Source of the DNA: an uncultured Mucilaginibacter sp.
Lineage (GTDB): Bacteria; Bacteroidota; Bacteroidia; Sphingobacteriales; Sphingobacteriaceae
Length of the DNA stretch: 51,142 bases
Assembly: GCF_937859865.1 (NCBI RefSeq)
Contig: NZ_CALMAT010000033.1
Span: forward strand, 2,789 to 53,930
Direction: 5' to 3'
The first letter of the stretch is position 1; each line of letters begins with the position of its first letter. Made by a program: the position numbers and the translations under genes. Below are positions 2 through 28,974 of this stretch, piece by piece. Below the pieces are notes generated by a model, which saw only the letters and a list, made by a program, of their open reading frames with translations, did no database searches and had not been told where the DNA came from.

Positions 2-673
2 GCCGAGGACCTGTTAAAATACGTGATAAAAGAAGCATTGGCCAAAAACGCCGACGATCTGGAGTTTTTAGCGCAGCGTTTGGCCGAAGAAGAAAAGCAA
101 AAACCGCAGCAGGAACGCCAGGAATTGGGCTTGCTGGAAAAACTGAACTTTTGTTTGGAAAATGATTTTGAACGTTTGACTTACACCGAAGCGATTGAGA
201 TTTTAAAAGAATCAACCCCGAACAAAAAGAAGAAATTTACTTATTTGATTGAAGGCTGGGGCGCGGACCTGCAATCGGAACACGAACGTTTTTTGGTAGA
301 AAAGCATTTTAAAAAACCGGTTATTTTAACGGATTATCCGGCGGCAATCAAAGCATTTTACATGCGCCAAAACGAACCGGATGTCGAAGGACGAAAAACA
401 GTTAGGGCGATGGATATTTTATTTCCGGGCATTGGCGAAATGGTTGGCGGAAGCCAGCGGGAAGAACGTTTGGACAAATTAACACAGCGCATGGACGAAA
501 TGAACATCTCAAAAGAAGAATTGGATTGGTATTTGGATACACGCCGTTTTGGTGCCTGCGAACATGCCGGTTTTGGTTTAGGTTTCGAGCGTTTGGTGCT
601 TTTTGTAACCGGTATGACAAACATTCGTGATGTAATTCCTTTTCCAAGGTTTCCAAAAAACGCGGAGTTTTAG
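2..673 (+). CDS. asnS: Asparaginyl-tRNA synthetase, 3' part (5' end outside window)
   Basis: C-terminal 223 residues of a class II asparaginyl-tRNA synthetase, which charges tRNA-Asn with asparagine in the cytoplasm. The frame is open to the window edge, so the gene is cut by the window and not broken. Visible signatures are the [10 protein letters not shown] segment of the catalytic core, [18 protein letters not shown] (class II motif 3 with its arginine) and the family's C-terminal [11 protein letters not shown]. The stop is TAG at 671-673. The codons at 23-38 carry the 12-base core of the dispersed motif described below (read as VIKEAL). Identification is firm because the motif 3 region is nearly invariant; AspS would lack this ending. 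Confidence 0.96.
22..39 (+). repeat. Dispersed-motif core inside asnS
   Basis: GTGATAAAAGAAGCATT matches the right half of intergenic copies such as 10705-10729 over 16-17 bases. It is read as V-I-K-E-A-L within asnS. The AT-rich left part of the motif is not preserved, so it is a core-only match. Confidence 0.5.
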
Positions 674-709: not shown

Positions 710-1228
710 ATGAATCCAGAAATCAGCATTCGAAGAATAGAACCGGAAGAAGCGGCGCACTTCGCTAAGTTTAGCTCCGAGTTGTTTGCTGAAACTTTTG
801 CTGAATTTAACGATCCGCAGGATATGGAAACTTATTTGACGGAAGCTTTCAACCTAAAAAAAATCGAGGAAGAATTAAGCACTTCGAACATATACTGTTT
901 TTATGCCATTAAAAACAGTATGCCGGTTGGTTGTATCAAAGTGATTATTGCTGATGCTTCTTTTACCGGCATAAAATTGGTAGAAATTTCGCGTTTGTAT
1001 GTTTCAAAAGCATATCACAGTCAAAAAATTGGCGCGGCTTTAATGGCTTTTGCTGTTGATTTCGCCGTAAAAAACCAGGCTCAAAAATTGTGGCTGGGCG
1101 TTTGGGAACACAACCAAAAAGCCATTGATTTTTATTTAAAATGGGGATTTGCAAAAACCGGTGCCCATGATTTTAAGTTGGGAAACGATGTGCAGCAAGA
1201 CTGGCTGATGGAGAAAACTTTGAGTTGA
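710..1228 (+). CDS. GNAT family N-acetyltransferase
   Basis: A 172-residue GCN5-related acetyltransferase; the substrate cannot be read from sequence. The strand-4/P-loop region EISRLYVSKAYHSQKIGAAL (about residues 92-111) gives the acetyl-CoA pyrophosphate-binding QKIGAA. The second half (LWLGVWEHNQKAIDFYLKWGF, about 127-147) is the classic GNAT motif B, with Trp/Asn and the Y-x-K-x-GF ending. It starts with ATG 37 bp after asnS, so it may be co-transcribed, and it is followed closely by a convergent gene. Unusually, two copies of the dispersed DNA motif lie within the reading frame (892-921 and 954-978), encoding residues 61-70 and 82-90. The protein still aligns to the family pattern without an obvious insertion. 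Confidence 0.9.
   Translation: MNPEISIRRIEPEEAAHFAKFSSELFAETFAEFNDPQDMETYLTEAFNLKKIEEELSTSNIYCFYAIKNSMPVGCIKVIIADASFTGIKLVEISRLYVSKAYHSQKIGAALMAFAVDFAVKNQAQKLWLGVWEHNQKAIDFYLKWGFAKTGAHDFKLGNDVQQDWLMEKTLS
892..921. repeat. Palindromic ACAGTAT-subtype motif inside GNAT gene
   Basis: Perfect 12-bp inverted repeat, ATACTGTTTTTA and TAAAAACAGTAT, around a six-base centre TGCCAT. It matches the intergenic hairpin at 28945-28974 at 28 of 30 bases, differing only in two centre bases. It is translated as IYCFYAIKNS. Confidence 0.85.
954..978 (-). repeat. GAAGCAT-subtype motif inside GNAT gene, antisense
   Basis: The reverse complement is identical at all 25 positions to the intergenic copy at 2353-2377. 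In the gene it lies antisense and is read as DASFTGIKL. It is a complete motif, AT-rich left part included. Confidence 0.88.
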
Positions 1229-2252: not shown

Positions 2253-2352
2253 GGTATTGTCATTTCGAAACGTAGTGAGAAATCTTCTTCAAAGCGATTA
2301 AGCTTGTAAACTTGGAAAGAAGATTTCTCCCTTCGGTCGAAAGGACAATACC
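2253..2352. repeat. Long imperfect inverted repeat, GTCATTTCGAA type
   Basis: The left arm 2253-2289 (GGTATTGTCATTTCGAAACG, then GTGAGAAATCTTCTT) pairs with the right arm 2317-2352 (AAGAAGATTTCTCCCTTCGG, then AAAGGACAATACC), giving a hairpin of about 35 bp per arm. The right arm abuts a copy of the 25-bp motif at 2353-2377. It lies between the secreted-protein start and the amidohydrolase stop, where a bidirectional or antisense terminator could act. A related element is at 23916-24033. Confidence 0.8.
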
Positions 2353-2377
2353 AATTTTATGCCGGTAAAAGAAGCAT
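2353..2377 (+). repeat. Single dispersed motif, GAAGCAT subtype
   Basis: Full-length copy: AATTTTA, TGCCGG, then TAAAAGAAGCAT. It ends exactly on the first base of the downstream amidohydrolase stop codon complement and is identical over 25 bases to the copy inside the GNAT gene. Confidence 0.85.
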
Positions 2378-8217: not shown

Positions 8218-9492
8218 ATGAATATCCTGCTCCTTGGTTCTGGCGGAAGAGAAAGTGCTTTTGCCTGGAAGTTATCGCAAAGCCCAAAATGCGAACGCTT
8301 GTTTATTGCGCCCGGCAATGCTGGGACCGGAATTTATGGCCAAAATGTCAACATTAGTGTAAATGATTTTGAAGCGGTCAAAAATTTAGTGCATAAAAAC
8401 AGTATCACCTTGGTTTTGGTTGGGCCGGAAGAACCTTTGGTAAACGGTATCCACGATTTTTTTCTGGCAGATGAATCGCTTAAAAATATTCCGATAATCG
8501 GTCCGCAAAAGCAAGCCGCGCAGTTAGAAGGCAGCAAAGATTTTTCTAAAGAATTTATGTTTAAAAACAGCATCCCGACCGCTGCATCTAAAACATTTAC
8601 GTTAGAAACTTTAGAAGAAGGCCGCGCTTATCTCGCTACGCATGGTTTGCCCATCGTTTTAAAAGCCGACGGACTGGCAGCCGGAAAAGGCGTTTTAATT
8701 TGTACCCGTTGGGAAGAAGCGGAACAGGAATTTACCTCGATGCTCCGCGATGCCAAGTTTGGTCAAGCAAGCGCTAAAGTGGTGGTCGAACAGTTTTTGC
8801 AAGGCATCGAACTTTCCGTTTTCGTATTGACCGACGGAAAAAATTACAAAATTTTGCCCGAAGCCAAAGATTACAAACGCATTGGCGAAGGCGATATCGG
8901 TTTAAATACCGGCGGAATGGGTTCTGTTTCTCCGGTTCCGTTTGCTAATGCTGCTTTTATGGCTAAAGTTAAGGAACGCATCGTTATTCCAACTATTGAA
9001 GGTTTAAAGCGAGAAAACATCCCGTACAAAGGTTTTATTTTTATTGGTTTGATGAATTGCGGCGGCGAACCGTACGTGATCGAGTACAACTGCCGCATGG
9101 GCGACCCGGAAACGGAAAGCGTTTTGCCCCGGATTGAAAACGATTTGGTAGAAATTTTACAAGCCGTTGCCGAAGAAAGACTGGACGAAATCAACTTAAA
9201 AATTTCCGATCAGGTTGCGGCAACGGTAATGTGTGTTGCTGCCGGTTATCCGGGCGATTATGTAAAAGATAAAACCATCACTGGAATCGAAAATGTACGC
9301 GGCTCCTTTGTTTTTCATGCCGGAACGAAGCTGGAGAATGAGGAAGTTAAAACTGCTGGCGGACGGGTTTTGGCGATAACCAGTTTGCAAAACACGTTGT
9401 TTGAAGCCGTACAACAAGCAACTTTAGATGCTGCCCGCATTTATTGGGACGGCCGGGTTTTTCGGAAAGATATTGGCTTTGATTTGTTATGA
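8218..9492 (+). CDS. purD: Phosphoribosylamine--glycine ligase
   Basis: A 424-residue GAR synthetase, which joins glycine to phosphoribosylamine in de novo purine synthesis using ATP. It has the N-terminal Rossmann-like NILLLGSGGRESAFAWKLSQ, the motif LVLVGPEEPLVNGI, ATP-grasp KADGLAAGKGVLIC, EAKDYKRIGEGDIGLNTGGMGSVSPV and the metal-binding EYNCRMGDPETESVLPR. The usual GGREHA reads GGRESA here, with Ser replacing His; I cannot tell whether this is lineage-wide. Length is normal. It stands alone and meets a convergent gene. Two stretches carry motif-like DNA, both read as KNSI (8381-8405 and 8552-8573). Confidence 0.97.
   Translation: MNILLLGSGGRESAFAWKLSQSPKCERLFIAPGNAGTGIYGQNVNISVNDFEAVKNLVHKNSITLVLVGPEEPLVNGIHDFFLADESLKNIPIIGPQKQAAQLEGSKDFSKEFMFKNSIPTAASKTFTLETLEEGRAYLATHGLPIVLKADGLAAGKGVLICTRWEEAEQEFTSMLRDAKFGQASAKVVVEQFLQGIELSVFVLTDGKNYKILPEAKDYKRIGEGDIGLNTGGMGSVSPVPFANAAFMAKVKERIVIPTIEGLKRENIPYKGFIFIGLMNCGGEPYVIEYNCRMGDPETESVLPRIENDLVEILQAVAEERLDEINLKISDQVAATVMCVAAGYPGDYVKDKTITGIENVRGSFVFHAGTKLENEEVKTAGGRVLAITSLQNTLFEAVQQATLDAARIYWDGRVFRKDIGFDLL
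8381..8405 (+). repeat. ACAGTAT-subtype motif inside purD
   Basis: AAAATTTAGTGCA then TAAAAACAGTAT, close to the intergenic copy at 47514-47538. It is read as NLVHKNSI. Confidence 0.65.
8552..8573 (+). repeat. Hybrid motif (ACAGCAT ending) inside purD
   Basis: AATTTATG, a short spacer, then TAAAAACAGCAT mixes the two subtypes and is read as EFMFKNSI. It is less certain than the other coding copies, because this protein region is conserved. Confidence 0.4.
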
Positions 9493-12034: not shown

Positions 12035-12161
12035 TCGGTAGCATTATTCGCGGCCAAATATCTGGTATTTTTAAGAAAGAAGAGGAAATTAATCAAGCTT
12101 AAATCCCTAATCAAACACGAATAGTTAAGTTTGCTTGCAAATAAAATTTCAAAACACTTCT

Positions 12162-13133
12162 ATGGTTTTAGTTACCGGTGCAACAGGTTTTCTCGGGTCG
12201 GAAGTTTGCCGGCAACTAATTTTAGCCGGTAAAAACAGTATCCGCTGTACCAAAAGGGCAAGTTCGGTTGTGCCGGAAATACTGCTTCCTTTTCAATCTA
12301 AAATTGATTGGGTGGAAGCTGATTTATTGGAAATTGATACGCTAAACGAAGCATTGCAAGGCGTTACACAGGTTTACCATTGCGCTGCGTTGGTTTCTTT
12401 TGATCCTTCCCTCAAAAAAAAACTCATCCAAAATAACGTGGAAGGCACGGCCAATTTGGTTAACCTTTGTATGGAAAAAGGGATCCGGCTGTTACATGTC
12501 AGTTCGATTGCTGCCGTTGGCGAAGGAAAACCCGGCGAATTGATCAACGAAAACCATCACTTAGAAGAAACGCCAAAAGACAACGCTTACGCCATATCCA
12601 AGTACGAAAGCGAGATGGAAGTTTGGCGCGGCATGGCTGAAGGTTTGGATGCGGTAATTGTAAATCCATCTCTAATTATCGGCAAAAATGCTGGTACAGC
12701 AGGCACCGGACAAATTTTTGAAACCGTACGCCAGGGTTTAAAATTTTACACTTCCGGTAGTTGTGGTTTGGTGGATGTGGAAGACGTGGCCAAAACAATG
12801 ATCCTTTTGATGGAAAGCAAGATCAGCAACGAACGCTTTATCATCAACGCCGAAAATTGGAGCTATAAAAGTTTATTTGAGGAAACGACCCATTATTTCG
12901 GCATCAAACCTCCAGCTTTTGAAGCCAAACCCTGGATGCTGGAACTGGCCTGGCGCGCCTCGGCTTTAGGTACTCTTTTTACCGGCAAAAAAATGGGCGT
13001 TGATAAAATTTCGGCCCAATCGGCCAGCCGCATTCAGGATTATGATAATTGTAAGGTAAAAGAAGCAATTGGTTTTGAATTTAAGCCAGTAAAGGAAACG
13101 CTCAAAGCGATTTGTGAAGTATTGAAAGGTTAA
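12162..13133 (+). CDS. NAD(P)-dependent epimerase/dehydratase (extended SDR)
   Basis: A 323-residue extended short-chain dehydrogenase of the NAD-dependent epimerase type, acting on a nucleotide sugar or similar substrate. The dinucleotide site is VTGATGFLGSEVC (residues 4-16), the catalytic YAISKYESE gives Tyr-x3-Lys, and LLHVSSIAAVGE supplies the Ser. The ATG at 12162 is chosen over a TTG at 12135 because the Rossmann strand begins directly with MVLVTGATG. It lies immediately before the first glycan block, though it has a higher GC content than those genes. Two motif copies are embedded (12218-12241, read AGKNSI; 13047-13070, read CKVKEAI). Confidence 0.9.
   Translation: MVLVTGATGFLGSEVCRQLILAGKNSIRCTKRASSVVPEILLPFQSKIDWVEADLLEIDTLNEALQGVTQVYHCAALVSFDPSLKKKLIQNNVEGTANLVNLCMEKGIRLLHVSSIAAVGEGKPGELINENHHLEETPKDNAYAISKYESEMEVWRGMAEGLDAVIVNPSLIIGKNAGTAGTGQIFETVRQGLKFYTSGSCGLVDVEDVAKTMILLMESKISNERFIINAENWSYKSLFEETTHYFGIKPPAFEAKPWMLELAWRASALGTLFTGKKMGVDKISAQSASRIQDYDNCKVKEAIGFEFKPVKETLKAICEVLKG
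12218..12241 (+). repeat. ACAGTAT-subtype motif inside the epimerase gene
   Basis: AATTTTA, GCCGG, TAAAAACAGTAT: nearly the same as the intergenic copy at 47514-47538. It is read as LILAGKNSI. Confidence 0.75.
13047..13070 (+). repeat. GAAGCAT-like motif inside the epimerase gene
   Basis: AATTGTAAGG then TAAAAGAAGCAATT, read as NCKVKEAI. One base interrupts the final CAT. Confidence 0.45.
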
Positions 13134-15712: not shown

Positions 15713-15874
15713 AAAGCCTGTTTAAAATTTACTAACAGGATATCAATGCTTCTTTTATCACCTAAAAATGGGCAAACATTTGATTTTGGGTTTATTTAAA
15801 TTAATGCGGACACCAATTTTTATACGGTAAAAGAAGCATTGGTAATTTTTTTTGTATAAGTTTAGACAGGCTTT
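15713..15874. repeat. Composite inverted-repeat element, copy 1
   Basis: The outer arms AAAGCCTGTTTAAA (15713-15726) and TTTAGACAGGCTTT (15861-15874) enclose an inverted pair of 25-bp motifs: 15745-15769 (AATGCTTCTTTTA, TCACC, TAAAAAT) and 15815-15840 (AATTTTTA, TACGG, TAAAAGAAGCATT). Total 162 bp. It fills almost all the space between the acyltransferase and glycosyltransferase genes. Confidence 0.85.
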
Positions 15875-18116: not shown

Positions 18117-18273
18117 AGCCTGTTTAAATTTATACAAAAGAAAATGTTAATGCTTCTTTTACTTTATAAAAATTCGTGCTTGTATCAATTTAAATAAATG
18201 AAAACTAAATGTTCGCCAATTTTTAGGTGATAAAAGAAGCATGGAGAACTTATCAAGTAAATTTTAAATAGGT
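18117..18273. repeat. Composite inverted-repeat element, copy 2
   Basis: The left arm AGCCTGTTTAAATTTATA (from 18117) and a decayed right arm AAATTTTAAATAGG (18259-18272) enclose motif copies at 18149-18173 (AATGCTTCTTTTA then CTTTATAAAAAT) and 18218-18242 (AATTTTTA, GGTGA, TAAAAGAAGCAT). It ends 2 bp from the next gene's stop. Confidence 0.85.
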
Positions 18274-26820: not shown

Positions 26821-28926
26821 TCAGGAAATTTTGTTCCAGCTTAAACCTTCGTTTTTTTGCGCGAAATGTTGCTGCAGCAATTGGTTTTTAGGCAGCAACA
26901 ATTGCGGGTCTTCTTCAAAAATTGCTTCAACCGCTTGCCGTGCTTTGAGCAAAATTGGCTGGTCTTCCACCAGATTCGCTATTTTTAAATCCAGCACACC
27001 GCTTTGCTGCTTGCCTTCGATATTGCCCGGGCCACGCAGTTGTAAATCAATTTCTGCTATTTCAAAACCATCGTTTGTACGCACCATCGTTTCCAACCGT
27101 GTCCGCCCATCTTTGGATAATTTCTCGCTGCTCATCAAAATACAGTACGATTGTTCGGCACCACGGCCAACCCTGCCGCGTAGTTGGTGCAGTTGCGACA
27201 GGCCAAACCGCTCTGCATTTTCAATAATCATCACCGAAGCATTTGGCACGTTTACGCCAACTTCGATTACTGTTGTGGCAACCATAATTTGCGTTTCGCC
27301 TTTTACAAAACGCTGCATTTCAAACGCTTTGTCTGCTGCCGAAAGCTGGCCATGGACAATGCTGATCCGGTATTCTGGCAAAGGAAATTCTCTCGACATC
27401 ACTTCAATGCCATCCATCAAATTTTTTAAATCCAGCTTTTCACTTTCTTTAATCAGCGGATAAACCACGTAAACCTGCCTTCCTTTGGCAATTTCTTGCT
27501 TCATAAAACCAAAAACACGCAAGCGACTGTTTTCATAAAAGTGTTTTGTTTCAATCGGTTTTCTTCCGGCCGGCAATTCATCAATGATGGAAATATCCAA
27601 ATCGCCATACAAAGTCATGGCCAAAGTACGTGGGATTGGCGTGGCCGTCATCACCAAAATATGCGGCGGGATACTGTTTTTACGCCATAATTTTGCGCGT
27701 TGCTCTACACCGAAACGGTGTTGCTCATCAATTACCACAAAGCCAAGGTTTTTAAACTGCACTTTGTCTTCGATCAAAGCATGTGTACCAATCAGAATAT
27801 GCAGTTTGCCGCTTTCCAGATTTTCATGGATCACCCGCCTTTCTTTTTTGGAAGTCGAGCCAGTTAGCAAGGCAAATTCCACAAAACCTTCGCCCAACAA
27901 TTGTTTTAAAGATTGATAATGCTGATTAGCTAAAATTTCAGTCGGCGCCATCATACAAGCCTGAAAACCGTTATCAATCGCCAGTAAAATACTCATCAAA
28001 GCAACCACCGTTTTGCCGCTGCCCACATCGCCTTGCAGCAAACGGTTCATTTGAATGCCTTTTTGTGTATCAAAACGAATTTCTTTCAGCGTTCTTTTTT
28101 GTGCCGAAGTTAATGCAAAAGGCAGTTTGTGTTTGTAAAACTCGTTGAAGAAATAGCCAACGTTGCCAAAAACATTGCCTTTAAACTGCTGCGTCCTGAA
28201 GATTTTGTTTTTGAGCAATTTAAGCTGAAGGAAGAAAAGCTCTTCAAACTTCAAACGTTTGGATGCTTCTTTTAGCTGCATAAAATCAGCAGGAAAATGA
28301 ATTTGCTGAAAAGCTTTTGCCCGGTCAATCAAATGGTTTGTTTGCCGCAAATATTCAGGCAAATTCTCGGTGATGTTTCTGCCGTATTGTTCCAGCAAAG
28401 CAGCAACCAGTTTTTGGATTCCTTTAGAATCCAACAAAAACTTCTTTAGTTTTTCCGTCGAATTGTAAGCTGGTTGCAAAGCCTGGCTCCCACTGCTTTT
28501 AGTTGGGTTTGCGCTGTAAAGTTCTGTTTCCGGGTGCGCAATTTGAAGTTTGTTATTAAAGAAACCCGGTTTCCCAAAGAAAACATAAACTTTGCCAACC
28601 ACCAAATTCTCAAAAACACGGGCAATTCCTTGAAACCAAACCAATTCTATCGGTCCGGTATCATCCTGCGCAGCAGCAACCAAACGCCGCGCAGCTTTTT
28701 CGCCAATGATTTCTTTATGCGTTAGCCGGGCCAGAATTTGCACATATGGCATTTCTGCCGATGCTTCTTTTACCTTATAAAAACGGGTGCGGTCAATGTA
28801 TTTAAAGGGGAAATATTGCAGCAGATCGCCGTAAGCAGCTATCCCCAATTCCTTTTTTAAAGCTGTGGCACGTGCTGCGCCAACACCTTTTAAATATTCA
28901 ACCGGGGTTTCAAAAAATTTGTTCAA
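26821..28926 (-). CDS. recG: ATP-dependent DNA helicase RecG
   Basis: A 701-residue RecG, which remodels stalled forks and Holliday junctions. The N-terminal wedge domain (OB fold, about 60-160: YVQILARLTHKEIIGEKAARRLVAA) is followed by Walker A LLQGDVGSGKTVVALM, TGSTSKKERR, VVIDEQHRFGVEQRAKLW (DEQH box), VMTATPIPRTLAMTLYGDLD (motif III), VVYPLIKESEKLDL, ATTVIEVGVNVPNASVMIIENAERFGLSQLHQLRGRVGRG, and the C-terminal RGPGNIEGKQQSG. The gene holds three motif copies: 27671-27694 (RKNSI), 28263-28286 (LKEAS) and 28761-28784 (VKEAS), all in the same frame within protein segments that align ungapped with the family. Confidence 0.98.
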   Translation of the reverse strand: MNKFFETPVEYLKGVGAARATALKKELGIAAYGDLLQYFPFKYIDRTRFYKVKEASAEMPYVQILARLTHKEIIGEKAARRLVAAAQDDTGPIELVWFQGIARVFENLVVGKVYVFFGKPGFFNNKLQIAHPETELYSANPTKSSGSQALQPAYNSTEKLKKFLLDSKGIQKLVAALLEQYGRNITENLPEYLRQTNHLIDRAKAFQQIHFPADFMQLKEASKRLKFEELFFLQLKLLKNKIFRTQQFKGNVFGNVGYFFNEFYKHKLPFALTSAQKRTLKEIRFDTQKGIQMNRLLQGDVGSGKTVVALMSILLAIDNGFQACMMAPTEILANQHYQSLKQLLGEGFVEFALLTGSTSKKERRVIHENLESGKLHILIGTHALIEDKVQFKNLGFVVIDEQHRFGVEQRAKLWRKNSIPPHILVMTATPIPRTLAMTLYGDLDISIIDELPAGRKPIETKHFYENSRLRVFGFMKQEIAKGRQVYVVYPLIKESEKLDLKNLMDGIEVMSREFPLPEYRISIVHGQLSAADKAFEMQRFVKGETQIMVATTVIEVGVNVPNASVMIIENAERFGLSQLHQLRGRVGRGAEQSYCILMSSEKLSKDGRTRLETMVRTNDGFEIAEIDLQLRGPGNIEGKQQSGVLDLKIANLVEDQPILLKARQAVEAIFEEDPQLLLPKNQLLQQHFAQKNEGLSWNKIS
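27671..27694 (-). repeat. ACAGTAT-subtype motif inside recG
   Basis: ATACTGTTTTTA, CGCCA, TAATTTT (minus strand: AAAATTA, TGGCG, TAAAAACAGTAT) is a full-length copy, read as LWRKNSI just before helicase motif III. Confidence 0.75.
28263..28286 (-). repeat. GAAGCAT-subtype motif inside recG
   Basis: ATGCTTCTTTTA, GCTGCA, TAAAAT is a complete motif read as FMQLKEAS. Confidence 0.75.
28761..28784 (-). repeat. GAAGCAT-subtype motif inside recG
   Basis: ATGCTTCTTTTA, CCTTA, TAAAAAC closely matches the composite-element half at 36076-36100 (one base different in the first 24). It is read as RFYKVKEAS. Confidence 0.78.
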
Positions 28927-28944: not shown

Positions 28945-28974
28945 ATACTGTTTTTATGCCGGTAAAAACAGTAT
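28945..28974. terminator. Perfect 12-bp hairpin, ACAGTAT-subtype motif
   Basis: ATACTGTTTTTA and TAAAAACAGTAT surround TGCCGG. It lies in the 56-bp space between recG's start and the ridA stop, so on the minus strand it could end ridA or its upstream genes. It is the intergenic twin of the coding copy at 892-921. Confidence 0.7.

Follow-up and report, generated by a model that had tools for sequence, protein, structure and literature searches.

Why does a single acetyltransferase gene carry two copies of a motif that also lies between genes elsewhere in the same DNA? In the window (the whole 51,142-nucleotide stretch that was analyzed), this motif consists of a 12-nt core, ATGCTTCTTTTA or the related AT[G/A]CTGTTTTTA, mostly followed by a C at +2 and by a 5-nt A/T tract at +8 to +12. 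We distinguish two core types, the TTC-type (ATGCTTCTTTTA; on the other strand TAAAAGAAGCAT) and the GT-type (ATACTGTTTTTA). The question arises from the following features.

710..1228, plus strand: GNAT acetyltransferase ORF of 172 aa (Pfam PF00583, E 1.9e-16), carrying copies 1 and 2
892..921, in-frame in the GNAT ORF: copy 1, a 30-nt palindrome of two facing GT-type cores (892-903 plus, 910-921 minus)
954..978, plus strand, in-frame in the GNAT ORF: copy 2, with a TTC-type core at 954-965, a C at 967 and an A/T tract at 973-977
2348..2377, minus strand: intergenic TTC-type copy, in exact inverted 32-nt match to 951-982
28945..28974, no strand assigned: intergenic GT-type palindrome; the same intergenic region in the congener G001 holds a TTC-type core

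A sequence-only reading of the window had matched both in-gene copies to intergenic ones, and both matches hold: 892-921 agrees with 28945-28974 at 28 of 30 bases, and 954-978 is the reverse complement of 2353-2377 at 25 of 25, a match that extends to 32 of 32 (951-982 against 2349-2380). That reading was also right that chance identity is negligible, as exact repeats in 20 dinucleotide-Markov shuffles of the window reached at most 15 to 21 nt, compared with 32 observed, and that both copies are translated inside a GNAT gene (in-frame in ORF 710-1228, with the Pfam match given above).

It had left two explanations side by side, namely, that the sequence was copied or converted into an existing gene or that selection at the DNA level shaped the codons. 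Codon-by-codon alignment with the two congeners, G001 and G002, reveals no gap inside either GNAT copy and nearly all codons identical, which favors selection at the DNA level and speaks against copying or insertion. The plus-strand core of copy 1 is identical in both congeners, and its minus-strand core matches at 12/12 bases in G001 and 10/12 in G002; the core of copy 2 is identical in both, with no internal gap. The A/T tract is 5/5 for both cores of copy 1 and for copy 2. A 2-aa indel lies beside copy 2 but outside its core, present in G001 and absent in the source genome and G002. The segments 951-982 and 2349-2380 lie 1.4 kb apart in inverted orientation, and because the last six bases in the source genome are unlike both congeners and the same as the neighboring copy, local conversion from the 2349-2380 copy is possible for the last few bases of 954-982. 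Alignment with 18 more distant GNAT homologues is ungapped in the core codons and shows different residues. The strict protein conservation across the family that it had named as a refutation is not found, as both the DNA and the peptide are missing from relatives outside the genus.

The observation of two copies in one gene is thus correct, but its scale was too small, since the copies belong to a genome-wide signal and are not specific to this gene. The word TAAAAGAAGCAT/ATGCTTCTTTTA occurs 31 times in the window, compared with 0.18 expected under a fourth-order Markov model, and exact copies of the four related cores number 45, with 13 in ORFs and 32 outside. Across the 3.98-Mb source genome, ATGCTTCTTTTA is present 2114 times (1055 on one strand and 1059 on the other), compared with 2 copies (1 + 1) of a reversed-word control, and the second core, ATACTGTTTTTA, adds 241 + 278 copies, with 0 + 0 for its control. 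The congeners contain 1947 and 1118 copies of ATGCTTCTTTTA, whereas each of the 117 other relatives among the 120 genomes searched (the remaining three being the genus members) has at most 10. Likewise, the GT-type core plus YC occurs 524, 391, and 455 times in the three genus genomes and at most 5 times in 148 other family members. The motif is limited to one genus within the Sphingobacteriaceae (Bacteroidota), and it was not found in phage contigs (viral_contigs, searched with one 18-base pattern). As candidate dialects in other genera, we counted over-represented 10-mers in 80 loci and followed up five of the outstanding ones, none of which is dispersed like the motif, a test whose power is limited by locus lengths of 4 to 20 kb; these five all lie in local arrays or clusters, and array words have extra copies elsewhere in the locus in L107 (two) and L152 (one). 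Regular local arrays of the 10-mers CTGGTCCGTG and GCGACATTAG were observed at L098 8650-8964 and L124 8407-8781, in a Pedobacter and a Sphingobacterium locus.

Copies in other genes reveal how the motif may have come to lie within coding sequence. The in-gene cores that we follow in the window, besides those of the GNAT gene, are these.

27..38, minus strand: TTC-type core in asparaginyl-tRNA synthetase (AsnS), reading VIKEAL; outside the genus mostly VIKYAL
8394..8405, minus strand: GT-type core in the phosphoribosylglycinamide synthetase (GARS) ORF 8218-9492
8562..8573, minus strand: GT-type core in the same GARS ORF
12230..12241, minus strand: GT-type core in the epimerase-family ORF 12135-13133
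27671..27682, plus strand: GT-type core in the RecG ORF 26821-28926; 12/12 in G001
28263..28274, plus strand: TTC-type core in the RecG ORF
28761..28772, plus strand: TTC-type core in the RecG ORF
33696..33707, plus strand: GT-type core in the ABC transporter ORF 33159-34976; 12/12 in G001
34225..34236, plus strand: GT-type core in the ABC transporter ORF; 12/12 in G001
34303..34314, minus strand: TTC-type core (A at position 3) in the ABC transporter ORF; 12/12 in G001

At the AsnS site, all 12 motif bases are present only in the source genome and its congeners, while 79 of 79 loci outside the genus match at 3 to 10 of 12. None of the 80 loci is gapped at the motif, and most outside loci encode an aromatic residue at the position of the genus's Glu. 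The best AsnS match among records outside the genus is a Mucilaginibacter MAG (87%). Two records, L126 (titled Streptomyces griseus MAG) and L165 (Phycisphaerales MAG), have AsnS sequences 75% and 73% identical to the AsnS of this Bacteroidota genome and are probably mislabelled or contaminated bins. An outgroup alignment was available for 23 of 219 in-gene copies, 9 of the 23 being AsnS and GARS orthologues across the three genomes. Core codons were gapped in 0 of these 23 and a gap lay within 8 codons in 3, in BLAST local alignments that under-report long gaps. Residue identity to the outgroup was 36% in the core, compared with 68% on average over the aligned proteins, so the motif has been placed where conserved proteins depart from their relatives. 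Together, the alignments show that the in-gene copies arose by point substitution, even where conserved residues were lost.

These observations bear on whether the motif is a mobile repeat, MITE or REP-like, whose inserted copies sometimes landed in genes. REP/BIME and MITE repeats are found as intergenic inverted pairs, and the motif shows such pairs as well, inverted pairs of cores being common between genes. Five lie in the window.

15746..15839: inverted pair of TTC cores between genes, core distance 82 nt
18150..18242: inverted pair between genes, core distance 81 nt
36076..36167: inverted pair between genes, core distance 80 nt
37466..37559: inverted pair between genes, core distance 82 nt
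41242..41335: inverted pair between genes, core distance 82 nt

All five are palindromic elements of ~150 nt with outer arms near GCCTGTTTAAATTTA/TAAATTTAAACAGGC. Core pairs 78 to 84 nt apart number 30 in 449 kb of the source genome, are few in the G001 sample, and were not seen at that spacing in the G002 sample, an uneven occurrence that would suit a mobile element, as would the single Y1 transposase-family ORF of the source genome (L087, G000:C34:1339-1683, 161 aa). Nevertheless, G002 has 1118 core copies and no paired element in its sample, the core persists where the intergenic sequence around it has diverged, and one core type can stand in for the other at the same place in another species. 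REP/BIME or MITE repeats would be expected as extragenic inserted copies, whereas 67 of the 240 copies in the source-genome sample, which covers ~11% of the genome, lie in ORFs (157 lie between ORFs and 16 across their edges; ORFs called by a greedy longest-ORF rule), with no insertion gaps. Because the in-gene copies arose by substitution, the motif is not an inserted REP/BIME or MITE element; insertion of a repeat into genes is refuted for the copies tested, on the basis that no core gaps were found against congeners (GNAT copies) or outgroups. We therefore consider a mobile repeat very unlikely as the source of the motif, and the ~150-nt paired element is perhaps a MITE riding on it.

If the copies are not inserted, we asked whether they are retained for the protein or for the DNA. 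In congeneric orthologues, the 12 motif bases are 0.932 identical, compared with 0.785 in stretches drawn at random, in the same frame, from these genes (500 draws, maximum 0.821), and at conserved residues the codon itself is identical in 413 of 448 cases at the motif (92%) and 13576 of 22362 elsewhere (61%), while amino-acid identity is nearly equal (0.841 at the motif and 0.814 elsewhere). A gap falls at the motif in 7 of 118 ordered comparisons, a number that, like the codon counts above, takes both directions of each orthologue pair (one direction gives 58, in 34 genes). Protein conservation was accordingly rejected as the cause of the shared DNA, since outgroup residues differ and codons are kept beyond the amino acids. 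The comparisons thus show that the copies are maintained at the DNA level within the genus, beyond amino-acid conservation. Between genes, 83 syntenic neighbor pairs carry the motif in both species in 17 cases, in one species in 14 and in neither in 52. In several syntenic intergenic regions the core is kept and the flanks have diverged, and in at least two intergenic places one species has a GT core and the other a TTC core. No TTC/GT exchange was found inside genes in the 118 ordered comparisons, which indicates that the types are not freely interchangeable in genes despite the intergenic switches.

The anatomy of the motif suggests what might be recognized. In the 449-kb source-genome sample, the commonest forms are ATGCTTC (240), ATACTTC (41), ATGCTGT (35), and ATACTGT (48), each followed by TTTTA, and extended logos show Y-C 3' of the core and then an A/T stretch. 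Among 185 copies well inside ORFs, the A/T fraction at +8, +9, +10, +11, and +12 is 0.97, 0.95, 0.97, 0.92, and 0.90, compared with a background of ~0.57, and no second tract was seen in these copies beyond the single one at +8 to +12. Of the 45 cores in the window, 42 are 5/5 A/T at these positions and the other 3 are 4/5. Perfect cores outnumber those with one mismatch in the source genome (240 versus 107) and in G001 (82 versus 49), and the numbers are 58 versus 59 in G002. The tolerance of the core is narrow and the A/T tract lies about one turn downstream of it; the best explanation is that the signal is read from double-stranded DNA and not via protein. A genome-wide word could also be iterated by methyltransferase-linked mismatch repair or mutational bias, and thousand-copy words of this kind do exist: the abstract of PMC4390886 describes cyanobacterial HIP1 as one that, like our motif, occurs throughout the genome. 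However, HIP1 is a palindromic octamer tied to methyltransferases and HIPs are short palindromes, whereas our main, TTC-type core is 12 nt long and not palindromic, its separate A/T tract accepts A or T at each position, and two types of core coexist. We regard such iteration as about as unlikely as a mobile repeat.

The distribution of copies gives further constraints. Motif density in the source-genome sample is 2.68 per kb between genes, compared with 0.17 per kb in ORFs, and the motif is most frequent in convergent intergenic regions (present in 25 of 35, 18 of 20, and 13 of 22). This high share and the inverted pairs are what an intergenic transcription-termination or RNA hairpin element would show, but many copies are single, inside ORFs and in both orientations, and copies are also found in divergent regions. 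Moreover, neisserial and Haemophilus signals share inverted pairs, and a terminator role for them is called contentious in passages of PMC2346458. We consider this the least likely of the explanations weighed. Strands are balanced over nine contig stretches (chi-square 8.0, 9 df, p 0.53), and an oriented motif of the Chi/KOPS type was rejected for this lack of orientation bias. Within ORFs, antisense copies are somewhat more numerous than sense copies (63 versus 42 and 54 versus 41; pooled p 0.019), in agreement with an orientation bias that part of PMC2346458 reports for uptake sequences. In-gene copies of both core types in the three samples thin towards the ORF 3' end (33, 22, 19, 22, 9 and 30, 24, 22, 9, 10 by quintile). 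The dispersion index of spacing in three samples is 0.70 (p 0.07), 1.48, and 0.71 (p 0.19), which gives no clear sign of spacing more even than random. Motif-poor stretches include a CRISPR-cas-like locus and two SusC/D-like loci but also a long core respiratory operon, all named by eye, so that acquired DNA shows no clear depletion. The first contains a CRISPR-like array of ~133 copies of a repeat containing TTCAATTCCAACATGG (L063, G000:C42, 3023-11790), and the ORFs that follow at C42:14192-21701, which resemble cas genes, form a nearly motif-free stretch.

Based on these observations, we propose that the motif works like a USS-like DNA uptake signal, with a probability of roughly 0.6, and we do not claim membership in USS/DUS as proven. 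Hallmarks of USS and DUS described in passages of PMC1626085 are copy number, strong consensus, enrichment in non-coding DNA despite numerous coding copies, inverted pairs, A/T segments in the case of USS, and a substitution origin evident from missing gaps. Our reading rests on the match to these hallmarks: the motif has a genus-shared high copy number, a strong consensus, non-coding excess, strand balance, inverted pairs, a gap-free substitution origin, and a 3' A/T segment. Under this model, a receptor on the cell surface would recognize the core together with the bendable A/T tract, so that DNA of the cell's own kind would be imported preferentially; the DNA would enter single-stranded by the route reported for Riemerella, which involves ComEC, DprA, and RecA. 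Imported motif-bearing alleles would then replace motif-less alleles via homologous recombination, and copies would build up through biased uptake and conversion ("drive") until protein cost halts them.

The inventory of import machinery constrains the model. ComEC and DprA are present in the source genome, but both also match in most control genomes and thus carry little weight for uptake; a NamZ/DUF1343 protein is present too, its family also occurring in control genomes. The type IV pilus motor ATPase (T2SSE, PF00437) has 0 matches in the source genome and matches in 14 of 14 control genomes; because it was not found, the receptor would not be a type IV pilin. DUF5689 occurs in a Riemerella gene that PMC8459023 describes as essential for transformation; none of the three genus genomes has it. 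The missing ATPase, the missing DUF5689 gene, the spacing, the motif-poor stretches, and the near-equal perfect and one-mismatch cores of G002 do not fit an uptake signal cleanly, and the presence of two core types in one genome, which is unusual, counts against it.

The main rival is that the copies are bound by an abundant, sequence-specific protein of the chromosome (one that organises the nucleoid or acts in segregation or repair) with no part in DNA uptake, purifying selection keeping the sites spread. The dyad-like layout TTTTA-N5/6-TAAAA and the palindromic forms at 892-921 and 28945-28974 would suit a dimer, sites keep their positions across the genus, including intergenic ones with diverged flanks, and the absence of a detected pilus motor is in line with such a protein. 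On the other hand, strand or regional bias was not seen in the sample, and ordinary protein sites do not usually show more perfect than near-perfect cores, as a passage of PMC1626085 has it. Thousands of sites overriding conserved housekeeping residues would also imply implausibly strong per-site selection unless drive is involved. We judge this alternative unlikely, though more probable than the other rivals.

An uptake-like signal of independent origin therefore appears to be the best reading of the genomic comparisons. According to a 2025 paper, USS and DUS are known only in Neisseriaceae and Pasteurellaceae. Whether the motif marks the third time that sequence-specific uptake of self-DNA has arisen independently (in pilus-less Bacteroidota, with a bipartite core and A/T tract, two core types, a non-pilin receptor, and drive rewriting conserved housekeeping residues genus-wide) we regard as an even bet. 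If it does, uptake specificity evolved again with other machinery in a pilus-less Bacteroidota genus, and the motif would offer a handle for finding the receptor and a clean natural test of the extent to which DNA-level drive can alter protein sequence. If the motif does not serve uptake, a signal of several thousand sites that overrides conserved residues needs explaining just as much.

Among known systems, Riemerella shares the phylum and a ComEC/DprA route without a pilus. Passages of PMC7965970 and PMC8459023 report that Bacteroidota can import DNA without pilus homologues and prefer their own, R. columbina being the species with preferential uptake of own DNA; uptake in our genus is predicted. 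The Riemerella k-mer count gave other words, e.g., AAAAATAAAA and AAAAAGAAAA, whose function its authors leave for further study, and Riemerella differs in its essential DUF5689 gene. In a literature search with most subscription journals outside its scope, we found, apart from the R. columbina k-mer table, no report of an uptake signal in Bacteroidota, and nothing relevant on Sphingobacteriaceae uptake sequences among the matches listed; the listed matches to the core letters were unrelated by title and abstract and were taken as chance. A type IV pilus with a signal-binding minor pilin is a feature of both established families, unlike the source genome, in which no pilus ATPase was found. 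The Neisseriaceae DUS resembles the motif in its 12-nt core, genus-level dialects, and comparable copy number (parts of PMC2346458 and PMC12616744) and differs in having no flanking A/T segment. Compared with the Pasteurellaceae USS (AAGTGCGGT plus downstream A/T segments), our motif has an unrelated 12-nt core, two core types, and one clear A/T tract instead of two, its host belongs to the Bacteroidota and has no pilus ATPase that was found, and its role in uptake is predicted. With this signal, as described in passages of PMC1626085, it nonetheless shares a thousand-copy strong core with a 3' A/T tract on both strands, enrichment between genes alongside many in-gene copies, inverted pairs, and a gap-free origin by substitution.
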